This document shows, piece after piece, positions 37,557-39,969 of a stretch of DNA of 49,624 nucleotides; the first letter of the stretch is position 1, and each line of letters begins with the position of its first letter. This DNA comes from Candidatus Gemmiger avistercoris (GTDB lineage: Bacteria; Bacillota; Clostridia; Oscillospirales; Ruminococcaceae), in the NCBI GenBank assembly GCA_019116705.1, contig DXBF01000064.1, positions 1 to 49,624 of the forward strand, written 5' to 3'. The notes below the pieces were generated by a model. It was not told the DNA's origin, ran no database searches, and saw only the letters and a list, made by a program, of their open reading frames with translations. Both the position numbers and the translations under genes were made by a program.

Positions 37557-37790
37557 ATGCAGGAACTCTTATTGGCCGTCGCCCGCGGCCTTGTGGAAGA
37601 CAAGGAGGCCGTGCAGGTGACCGTTGACCCCGCGCGGGAGGATGGCACCGTGGTGTACCACCTCAAAGTAGCGGAGGCCGACATGGGTCATGTGATCGGC
37701 AAGCAGGGGCGCATCGCCAAAGCGATCCGCGTTGTGATGCGTGCTGCTGCGGCCCGCCATGACGAGAAAGTCGTCGTCGAGATCGACTGA
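37557..37790 (+). CDS. khpA: KH-domain RNA-binding protein KhpA
   Basis: A 77-residue single KH domain (formerly YlqC). The RNA-binding loop is GKQG in DMGHVIGKQGRIAKAIRVVMRAAA. KhpA pairs with KhpB to bind small and messenger RNAs and influences cell division in streptococci. It follows rpsP by 36 bases with AGGGAGG ahead of ATG 37557. A terminator with six T residues follows 16 bases after its stop. Confidence 0.95.
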   Translation: MQELLLAVARGLVEDKEAVQVTVDPAREDGTVVYHLKVAEADMGHVIGKQGRIAKAIRVVMRAAAARHDEKVVVEID

Positions 37791-37806
37791 CAAGGCAAAA
37801 CAGCTG

Positions 37807-37844
37807 GCGCCCCGCCTCCGTCCATCGGTGCGGGGCGCTTTTTT
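37807..37844 (+). terminator. Terminator between khpA and the PPase-rimM gene
   Basis: GCGCCCCGC (37807-37815) pairs with GCGGGGCGC (37830-37838), followed by TTTTTT. It ends only 16 bases before the next start codon, leaving no room for a full promoter between, so rimM and trmD must rely on read-through. Confidence 0.85.
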
Positions 37845-37860
37845 GTGCAAGGGGGAAACA

Positions 37861-38739
37861 GTGGCGCTGGAGTCCGTCTTTGTGATCGTGGATCGTCCCC
37901 TGGGAAGCTGCCACCCCCAATGGCCGGACAGCATCTACCCGGTCAACTACGGCTATGTGCCGGGTTTGCCGGCGCCGGATGGGGAGGAACAGGATGTCTA
38001 CATCCTGGGGGTGGACCACCCGCTGGAAACCTTCACCGGGCCGGTGATCGCGGTCATTGATCGCGCAGATGATGTGGAAGACAAGTGGGTGGCCGCCCCG
38101 CAGGGCTGCCATTTTACCCGCGAACAGATCGAGTCGGCCGTCCGGTTTCAAGAACGCTATTTTCGATCGCAAGTCATTGTATTGCCGCAAAATGCAAAGG
38201 AGGAAGCTATGCAGAACTATCTGCCTGCCTGCAAGATCGTCACCACCCACGGGGTGCGCGGCGAGATGAAGGCCCTGCCGCTGTGCGACGGCGCGGAATT
38301 TCTGGCAAAATGCAAACGCCTGTTCGCCGCGGCGGATGGAGCCGGGGAGGTCCGCGTGCTGGGCGTGCGGCCCCAGGGCAATATGATCCTGCTGCGCCTG
38401 GAGGGCGTCGGCGATATGGACGCCGCCCGCGCCCGGGTGGGGCGGACCTATTACTTTGCAAAGGGCGACGTCCGTCTGCCCAAAGGCCGCTACTTCATCG
38501 ACGACCTGCTGGGCTGCCGGGTGGTGGACGCCGCCACCGGGGCCGAGTACGGCACCCTGACCGACGTGGACCATCCGGCGGCCCAGGACATCTACACCGT
38601 GACCGACGCGCAGGGCGGGACCCATATGCTGCCCGCGGTGCCGGAGTTCGTGCAGAAGATCGATCTGGAAACCCGCACGATCACCGTGACCCCCATCGAC
38701 GGCATGTTCACCGAGGCGGTCAACGGCGATAAGGAGTGA
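37861..38739 (+). CDS. Pyrophosphatase-like domain in frame with RimM
   Basis: One open frame of 292 residues. Residues 1 to about 112 are a short inorganic-pyrophosphatase-like domain (VFVIVDRPLGSCHP, YPVNYGYVPG, DGEEQDVYILGVDHP, DDVEDKWV), as in a ~115-residue stand-alone protein known from clostridia; the usual DxDPxD signature is altered to DGEEQD. Residues 117-292 are complete RimM. No stop separates them. GTG 37861 has AAGGGGG six bases upstream. A strong AAAGGAGG just before codon 117 suggests RimM is also started on its own. Whether the first domain hydrolyses pyrophosphate is uncertain. Confidence 0.8.
   Translation: MALESVFVIVDRPLGSCHPQWPDSIYPVNYGYVPGLPAPDGEEQDVYILGVDHPLETFTGPVIAVIDRADDVEDKWVAAPQGCHFTREQIESAVRFQERYFRSQVIVLPQNAKEEAMQNYLPACKIVTTHGVRGEMKALPLCDGAEFLAKCKRLFAAADGAGEVRVLGVRPQGNMILLRLEGVGDMDAARARVGRTYYFAKGDVRLPKGRYFIDDLLGCRVVDAATGAEYGTLTDVDHPAAQDIYTVTDAQGGTHMLPAVPEFVQKIDLETRTITVTPIDGMFTEAVNGDKE
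38209..38739 (+). CDS. rimM: Ribosome maturation factor RimM, internal start of the fused frame
   Basis: The last 176 residues of the fused frame are a normal-length RimM (E. coli 182): N-terminal barrel YLPACKIVTTHGVRGEMKALPLCDG, LRLEGVGDMDAARARVG, then the PRC-barrel half with GRYFIDDLLGCRVVD, GTLTDVDHPAAQDIYTV and LLPAVPEFVQKID-like sequence. ATG 38209 stands five bases after AAAGGAGG, an ideal site, so this product can be made separately. RimM binds S19 and helps mature the 30S subunit head. It is followed by trmD three bases after the stop. Confidence 0.9.
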   Translation: MQNYLPACKIVTTHGVRGEMKALPLCDGAEFLAKCKRLFAAADGAGEVRVLGVRPQGNMILLRLEGVGDMDAARARVGRTYYFAKGDVRLPKGRYFIDDLLGCRVVDAATGAEYGTLTDVDHPAAQDIYTVTDAQGGTHMLPAVPEFVQKIDLETRTITVTPIDGMFTEAVNGDKE

Positions 38740-38742
38740 CCC

Positions 38743-39969
38743 ATGCGCATCGACATCGTAACGCTTTTCCCGGAACTGTGCGACAGCTTCCTTTCCGCCA
38801 GCATCCTGGGCCGGGCGCGGGCCAAAGGGCTTTTCGAGGCCCACTGCCACCAGATCCGGGACTATACCCGCAACAAGCAGAAGCAGACCGACGACTACCC
38901 CTACGGCGGCGGCTGCGGCATGGTGCTGTACGCCCAGCCCATCGCCGACTGCCTGCGCGCCGTGCAGGCCCAGTGCGCCGCCCAGGGCCGGGCCAGGCCC
39001 CATGTGGTCTTTTTGACCGCCGCCGGGCAGCCGTACAATGAGGAAACGGCCAAACGGCTGGCGCAGTACGACGCCGTCACCCTGGTCTGCGGCCACTATG
39101 AGGGCATCGACGAGCGGGTGATCGAAGCCTTCGGGGACGAGGAGATCTCCATCGGGGACTATGTGCTCACCGGCGGCGAACTGGCCAGTCTGGTGGTGGC
39201 CGACAGCGTGCTGCGCCTGCAGCCCGGTGTGCTGGCCGAGGAAAAGGGCTACCAGGACGAAAGCTACTGGGACGGCCTGCTGGAATACCCCCAGTATACC
39301 CGGCCCGAAGTGTGGGAGGGCCGCGCCGTACCGCCGGTGCTGCTCACCGGCGACCATCAGAAGATCGACGCCTGGCGGGCGGCCCAGAGCCGCGCCCGCA
39401 CCCGCATCCGCCGCCCCGACCTTTACGAGCGCTGGTGCGACACCCACCCCATCACCGACTTCCCCAAGTGGAAGCGCGGCGAAAACATGCGCCTTGTGAA
39501 AACCGGCGAACAATGGGCGGCGGCCGCCGCCCTGTTCGCCGAGGGCCGCTACGCAGTATGCGAAGAAGTGTTCACGCCGCTGTATCTGGACACGCTCACG
39601 CCGGAAAACTGCCGCGCCGAACTGCTGGAAGAAAAGCGCGGCGGCTGGGCCTTTTACCTGCACTATACGGCGGGGCAGGCCGACGGTATGGTGGGGGTCT
39701 GCCACAAGACCGGGCGGATCACCCACCTGTTTGTGACGTCCGAAGCCCGGGGGAAGGGCATCGGCGCCAAAATGCTGGAATTTGCCCGCAAAAAGCTGCC
39801 GGAACACCCCCACCCGACGCTGACGGTGCTCAACACGAACACCCGGGCGCTGGCCCTCTACCGCCGCCTGAAGTGGCGCCCGGCGGGCGTGGAGACGGTC
39901 TACGACCCGGCGCAGGACCCGACCGCCGCCGTCTATACGGAAGAATGGAGGCTGCGGTACGAAGGGTAA
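38743..39969 (+). CDS. trmD: tRNA (guanine37-N1)-methyltransferase fused to a GNAT acetyltransferase domain
   Basis: A 408-residue protein. Residues 1 to about 245 are a full TrmD (MRIDIVTLFPELCDSF; the trefoil-knot SAM site LVCGHYEGIDERVIE and EISIGDYVLTGGELA; the C-terminal RRPDLYERW), which methylates G37 of tRNA and prevents frameshifting. Residues about 249-408 are a GNAT domain with THLFVTSEARGKGIGAKMLEFARKKL, including the acetyl-CoA loop RGKGIG, and LNTNTRALALYRRLKWRPAG. The internal Met249 lacks a ribosome site, so a real fusion is likely. rplS, which normally follows trmD, is absent. ATG 38743 follows AAGGAG. Confidence 0.93.
   Translation: MRIDIVTLFPELCDSFLSASILGRARAKGLFEAHCHQIRDYTRNKQKQTDDYPYGGGCGMVLYAQPIADCLRAVQAQCAAQGRARPHVVFLTAAGQPYNEETAKRLAQYDAVTLVCGHYEGIDERVIEAFGDEEISIGDYVLTGGELASLVVADSVLRLQPGVLAEEKGYQDESYWDGLLEYPQYTRPEVWEGRAVPPVLLTGDHQKIDAWRAAQSRARTRIRRPDLYERWCDTHPITDFPKWKRGENMRLVKTGEQWAAAAALFAEGRYAVCEEVFTPLYLDTLTPENCRAELLEEKRGGWAFYLHYTAGQADGMVGVCHKTGRITHLFVTSEARGKGIGAKMLEFARKKLPEHPHPTLTVLNTNTRALALYRRLKWRPAGVETVYDPAQDPTAAVYTEEWRLRYEG

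Follow-up and report, generated by a model that had tools for sequence, protein, structure and literature searches.

In the 49,624-nucleotide stretch of Candidatus Gemmiger avistercoris DNA analysed here (the window; contig DXBF01000064.1 of assembly GCA_019116705.1), we found that a compact pyrophosphatase-like domain of 108 residues, which we name PPX, reads in frame into the ribosome maturation factor RimM, whose native start lies inside the fused gene. PPX-RimM is a new domain combination, and the fusion looks real but very rare, with a narrow distribution. We moderately favour the explanation that PPX was inserted beside rimM, that the fused product and free RimM are both made, and that PPX probably acts on a substrate of its own. 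The features of the locus are as follows.

37557..37790, forward strand: presumptive khpA, KH-domain RNA-binding protein, 77 aa, the upstream gene (open reading frame list; operon order)
37806..37844, forward strand: terminator-like hairpin and T-run between khpA and the fusion gene (fold; two overlapping terminator-like matches)
37849..37855, forward strand: putative Shine-Dalgarno AAGGGGG of the fusion start (sequence; duplex -10.3 kcal/mol)
37861..38184, forward strand: PPX, compact family-I-pyrophosphatase-like domain, residues 1-108 (PF00719 below cut-off; AlphaFold; Foldseek)
38185..38208, forward strand: linker codons PQNAKEEA, residues 109-116, largely the old rimM leader (comparison with the G032 empty site and G031)
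38196..38203, forward strand: putative internal Shine-Dalgarno AAAGGAGG for free RimM, within the linker codons (sequence; duplex -12.1 kcal/mol)
38209..38739, forward strand: rimM, ribosome maturation factor, 176 aa, residues 117-292, native ATG 38209 (TIGR02273, PF01782, PF24986)
38743..39969, forward strand: trmD with a fused C-terminal GNAT domain, 408 aa, the next gene (PF01746 and PF13673)

The first-pass annotation, made from the letters alone, had claimed an open frame from 37861 to 38739 that holds a complete RimM with an internal start and predicts two products. The frame translates as claimed, from GTG 37861 to the TGA that ends at 38739 (292 codons plus TGA). It is also open upstream of 37861, where the first GTG, at 37741, would give 332 aa; from the sequence, GTG 37861 rather than GTG 37741 is the sensible fusion start, because AAGGGGG lies at 37849-37855 and the resulting N-terminus coincides with that of free-standing PPX relatives. 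The RimM part scores 97.8 bits against TIGR02273 (cut-off 66.2), and in Pfam the 292-residue product matches PF01782 with 46.1 bits and PF24986 with 52.6 bits, both above cut-off. By these profiles, the RimM part is complete and two-domain, with an N-terminal RimM domain and a C-terminal PRC barrel, as in other RimM proteins, and the gene order is the same; the difference is the N-terminal PPX, which the window product adds through an eight-residue linker. RimM binds S19 and the 30S subunit and affects 16S maturation.

The claim of an internal RimM start is borne out by AAAGGAGG at 38196-38203, which stands 5 nt before ATG 38209. Among the four start sites for which we computed a duplex with the anti-Shine-Dalgarno sequence, whose letters we take to be the typical ones, that of rimM is the strongest (-12.1 kcal/mol), followed by khpA (-12.0), trmD (-10.6) and PPX (-10.3). 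Predicted structure is stronger around the PPX start than around that of rimM (mean unpaired 0.22-0.26 versus 0.48), so the fusion may be produced in small amounts. The AAAGGAG of the rimM ribosome-binding site is retained in G031, the second genome that carries the fusion, and at the empty site of G032, a genome of the genus without PPX before rimM. With a Shine-Dalgarno sequence before each start, two products are predicted from one frame.

The gene order rpsP-khpA-rimM-trmD was found at all 30 genus loci fetched; the 77-residue gene upstream of the fusion is presumably khpA, a name that we took from this operon order. The region has four terminator-like matches, as compared to 1.7 expected. 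When the khpA-rimM spacers of L003-L030 were compared by eye, most were seen to have a G+C-rich hairpin with a T-run, the hairpins being of at least two unrelated sequences in different species and L030 being without a clear T-run. The hairpin may set the output of rimM-trmD relative to rpsP. The trmD frame measures 388-422 aa at the 27 of 30 loci where it is uncut by the stretch end, and because these lengths are similar the TrmD-GNAT fusion looks old in the genus, with the Pfam assignment referring to the window copy.

The domain ahead of RimM had been described as pyrophosphatase-like, and profile, conservation and fold agree with that. PPX alone scores 19.5 bits against the Pfam family PF00719 and the whole product 17, below the cut-off of 23.5, which some fused PPX relatives pass (e.g., L111 with 28.2 bits). 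With an alignment to 78 free-standing relatives as input, AlphaFold models PPX at a mean pLDDT of 90.9 and a pTM of 0.85, and each of the 50 Foldseek matches listed for the model is an inorganic pyrophosphatase (probability 1.00, E 2.6e-6 to 4.4e-5, identity 13-24%, TMq 0.59-0.71, TMt 0.42-0.54). PPX is thus predicted to have the fold of family I pyrophosphatases. Conservation reaches at least 97% among the 78 other rows of alignment A1 at 28 positions, all of which the window retains; with this and the in-frame junction in a second species, the resemblance exceeds what chance would give. Only two departures, at positions 3 and 89, separate the domain from the 70% consensus of 118 domains; given this conservation, the window PPX is probably folded and may be active, and it is predicted to be an intact metal-dependent phosphohydrolase domain. 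In the A1 tree, its terminal branch is long (0.62, median 0.18, rank 75 of 79 by increasing length) and its root-to-tip length ordinary (0.85, median 0.81).

PPX shares with family I enzymes the predicted fold as well as the NYG and DGxxxD motifs and an E-x-K segment, which align in the profile alignment. It differs from them in being about 108 residues long, against roughly 160-190 in the solved pyrophosphatases listed, in having E for the middle Asp of DxDxxD, and in falling below the Pfam cut-off. The catalytic set of the E. coli enzyme comprises E20, K29, E31, R43, Y55, D65, D67, D70, D97, D102, K104, Y141 and K142. In an alignment with a Rickettsia pyrophosphatase, Y55, D65, D70, D97 and K104 (E. 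coli numbering) correspond to Y30, D40, D45, D70 and K75 of PPX, while D67 and D102 correspond to E42 and E73; these counterparts are read from the sequence alignment, in which none was assigned to the N-terminal catalytic residues or to the Y141/K142 pair. We also considered that PPX might be the cell's only pyrophosphatase. This is unsupported, as the window's genome has elsewhere a 95-bit match to DHHA2, which marks a family II pyrophosphatase candidate, and PPi removal therefore need not depend on PPX. The assembled part of the genome has no match to a membrane pyrophosphatase and none to PF00719 besides PPX.

The 292-residue product has a match in 34 of the 35 genomes of the genus, and PPX stands in frame before RimM in two of these 34, the window's genome and G031. 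We fetched 30 of the 34 rimM loci; 28 of them have khpA, then a spacer of 55-201 nt, then rimM, without PPX, and the remaining four matches, for which the match starts were considered, begin at query residue 114-117. PPX-only matches were found in two genomes of the genus, G010, where PPX belongs to a GrpB-PPX protein, and G033, which holds a short relic. The relic (L112:237-425) is a 78-codon open frame from which the N-terminal half is absent, and the other two forward frames immediately before it show no sign of an N-terminal half. In a tree of four operon genes, G033 groups with G031 and G017.

Beyond the genus, no further genome with the fusion was found among the matches listed for three partly overlapping samples, of 396 genomes at the family, 394 at the order and 391 at the class level. 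The family matches listed are the best-scoring ones; the order and class searches used an E limit of 1e-55, at which a remote fusion that gives two weaker matches instead of one could escape. For three RimM matches of the family sample that start early (G324, G137 and G288; at query residue 77-101) the loci were inspected, and PPX is absent before rimM in each; these three were drawn from a larger group that also includes, for example, G275, G060 and G119. The first-pass annotation had supposed the arrangement to be new as far as it knew; its rarity is supported by these counts. We found no description of a PPX-RimM fusion in the accessible parts of the literature on RimM fusions, domain architecture or N-terminal extensions, nor in those of the literature on short family I pyrophosphatases, the TrmD-GNAT fusion, and gene fusion by stop-codon loss or internal initiation. 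Passages of PMC11210485 and PMC1282579 do not mention it, and our search for literature on an inorganic pyrophosphatase-GrpB-Nudix fusion returned none.

The second occurrence of the fusion bears on whether the junction is real. The window's genome is a draft (1.95 Mb, 69 contigs, 83% complete), as is G031 (about 120 contigs, 93% complete), and a draft may join two separate genes through an assembly or sequencing error. However, from a common GAAACC to the rimM ATG the window and G031 have 183 nt each with no indel, and over the tail that they have in common (61 codons) 15 of 61 residues differ, a protein identity of 75%. Since the junction recurs, in frame, in a second species, G031, a sequencing error is very unlikely; we reject error as the source of the fusion, and the probability that we leave to it is close to nil. 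A search of relatives for the same junction, as the first-pass annotation had proposed, thus found it in G031. The other outcome that it had foreseen, a stop between the domains in all close relatives, did not appear: the G031 junction is in frame, and PPX is absent at 28 of the 30 genus loci.

The first-pass annotation attributed the fusion to the disappearance of a single stop codon within a tight operon. We rejected a simple stop loss between two old neighbours for this locus because PPX is missing between khpA and rimM at these 28 loci; what they show instead is an insertion without a stop. The empty site of G032 consists of the hairpin, the T-run, CACACAACAAAGGAGAACGCC and the ATG, while the sequence before the rimM ATG ends in ...TTATTGCCGCACAATACAAAGGAGAACGCC in G031 and in ...GTATTGCCGCAAAATGCAAAGGAGGAAGCT in the window. 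From the comparison of these three sites, PPX, lacking a stop, follows the hairpin and reads into the former leader, which has turned into the linker. The ends of free-standing PPX proteins coincide with the start of the linker in the window: of 85 frames classed as free-standing and counted without deduplication, 51 have their end at window residue 107 or 108, with a median of 108 and a range of 101-122. By this comparison, PPX was inserted beside rimM. Because a single genus offers empty sites alongside one intact and one decaying copy, the steps of a nested-start gene fusion can be read directly.

The route of the insertion is less plain. In the tree built on rpsP, khpA, rimM and trmD of 30 genomes, the window's genome and G031 fall into different clades. 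Yet their spacers ahead of PPX agree in 63 of 73 columns; against the G032 empty site, the window spacer agrees in 51 of the first 60 columns, and it can be aligned only with large gaps to that of G001, which stands close to the window's genome in the tree. Inheritance within one clade is accordingly less likely, and the different clades together with the matching spacer make transfer or recombination within the genus seem more likely. A window-by-window scan along the operon found no clear recombined tract in rimM, with G031 ranking 7 of 29 over the first 90 nt, so recombination stays an inference.

The two copies also allow the tail to be compared at the level of codons. The window and G031 tails have 7, 8 and 19 nucleotide differences at codon positions 1, 2 and 3 (one-sided binomial p 0.006 for third positions). 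The dN/dS of the tail is 0.28-0.31 (0.25-0.27 when the last six codons are left out), as compared to 0.07-0.09 for khpA and 0.08-0.32 for rimM (two methods); this is a comparison of one species pair, in which purifying selection before and after the fusion cannot be told apart. By the codon pattern, the tail was evolving as a protein sequence during at least some of its past, which does not imply selection on the fusion.

In G031, residues 1-55 are replaced in frame by Met-Arg-Pro, and the lost part holds 19 of the 28 nearly invariant positions together with the metal-site motif; the invariant Asp71 is Ala. Because the N-terminal half and the invariant Asp are lost, an intact PPX is dispensable for RimM there. 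Such decay is what one would expect if the fusion were a tolerated accident, a neutral by-product of the insertion, with PPX heading for loss as in G031 and free RimM sufficing. The occurrence of the fusion in just two of 34 matching genus genomes fits this, as do the two PPX-only genomes, one of them with a short relic. Against it, the window PPX is intact at the conserved positions, and the frame has stayed open in two species despite the 15 differing tail residues and with the codon-position bias. We consider the accident a less probable reading that nevertheless deserves a place.

The G031 remnant has its own ATG with AAGGGG upstream, and it stays in frame with RimM. This would also suit a leader role, in which the chief effect of translating the PPX frame would be to adjust rimM-trmD translation through coupling at the internal start, irrespective of the peptide made, and the retained rimM Shine-Dalgarno sequence is compatible with it. 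However, coupling is possible without a fused frame, the codon-position bias of the tail suggests selection on protein, and 28 of 30 genus loci manage without PPX; we give the leader role little credence.

We return to the explanation that we favour, in which both products are made and PPX works on its own. A free-standing compact PPX gene was inserted without its stop between the post-khpA hairpin and the rimM ribosome-binding site, as the empty-site comparison shows, most likely by recombination. Transcription would pass the hairpin after khpA as in relatives. Ribosomes starting from GTG 37861 would read through the old leader to give the 292-residue PPX-RimM, while ribosomes at the retained AAAGGAGG would start at ATG 38209 and give ordinary RimM, by which RimM function would be kept. 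The free product is expected because the Shine-Dalgarno sequence is retained and the start is the native one; the fused product is expected because it has a Shine-Dalgarno sequence, an intact domain and a frame open in two species. PPX would probably work on a small substrate of its own, with a short linker holding it to RimM and with no built-in part in ribosome assembly.

PPX also occurs outside this locus. Searching genome contigs, we obtained 210 PPX relatives among 242 candidate stretches, with up to 70% identity to the window over the best segment, and kept the best 80 of the 210. The window's rpsP, khpA, rimM and trmD have no match in these best 80 loci (E limit 1e-4, 0.3-4 kb on each side). 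By a simple open-reading-frame rule, 16 of the best 80 sit within longer proteins, of which 14 were scanned with Pfam (all but L042 and L100) and 12 have a partner above cut-off: GNAT in five, NUDIX in two, GrpB in two, and a methyltransferase, a pseudouridine synthase and Imm12 in one each. L032 has no Pfam partner match, and L090 has only sub-cut-off P-loop matches. Six further fused proteins, chosen for their long frames, have as partners a methyltransferase (two), NUDIX (two), a xylose-isomerase-like barrel (one) and GrpB (one), so that 18 of the 20 fused frames scanned have a named partner above the Pfam cut-off. PPX stands before some partners and behind others. Judging from these sequences, PPX is widespread, mostly free-standing, and in Bacillota a repeated fusion partner of unrelated enzymes. 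The more general interest of the case lies in this promiscuous compact pyrophosphatase-like domain, and the locus draws attention to its joining of many unrelated enzymes across Bacillota.

These partners weigh on the functional link, suggested by the first-pass annotation, between pyrophosphate or nucleotide binding and ribosome assembly. Should PPX be active when attached to RimM, assembly of the small subunit would be linked to a phosphohydrolase: a bifunctional factor could couple PPi or nucleotide hydrolysis to 30S assembly, or place the phosphohydrolase at the ribosome. Its conserved PPX residues and complete RimM would allow this, and PPX is also fused to an RluA-like pseudouridine synthase at two loci (L084 by Pfam, L100 by translation only). 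However, the distribution is very narrow, most PPX partners are without a known ribosome tie, the N-terminal half has been dropped in G031, and a DHHA2 family II candidate lies elsewhere in the genome. We hold such coupling to be improbable. A more elaborate version, in which a working two-headed PPX-RimM delivers a phosphohydrolase for PPi or for a nucleotide signal to 30S subunits during their maturation, free RimM from the same frame serves as regulatory partner, and the whole is a module recombining between species of the genus, has a similarly slim chance. The suggested link is thus unsupported, since PPX joins many unrelated partners and G031 lacks the metal-site N-terminal half; a ribosomal function of PPX is possible, and nothing found requires it.

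Three of the fused proteins may be described separately. In L084:3116-4309 (Pfam) and L100:3116-4309 (translation only), PPX is at the C-terminus of the RluA-like pseudouridine synthase, an RNA-acting enzyme. In L109:3443-4309, PPX stands behind an Imm12 immunity-like domain in one predicted open reading frame.

In a plasmid collection, 24 of 72,556 records match PPX, some of them chromosome-sized; among the 15 rows listed, 12 are annotated as "inorganic diphosphatase" and one as "NUDIX domain-containing protein", and two are without a gene. In a phage collection, four of 50,697 records match, none of them annotated. The short free-standing "inorganic diphosphatase" belongs to the same family as PPX, with 39-49% identity in the plasmid rows listed, and unlike the window PPX it has its own stop, mostly at residue 107-108.

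A fusion by stop loss, rejected for the rimM locus, is seen elsewhere for the same domain. In two Blautia MAGs (L035:2792-3136 and L036:4001-4345), PPX is followed by TGA-AAT-ATG and a methyltransferase, all in one frame, whereas in L041:650-1615 (a Candidatus Blautia pullistercoris MAG) and L042:4001-4966 (an uncultured Firmicutes MAG) TCA stands where the former have TGA, and PPX is joined to the methyltransferase. Compared in this way, L041 and L042 fit a read-through fusion of PPX by stop loss at the single-base level. As in the window, PPX there reads in frame into the next gene, which has its own ATG; the difference is that TCA replaces TGA between adjacent genes and that the partner is a SAM methyltransferase.
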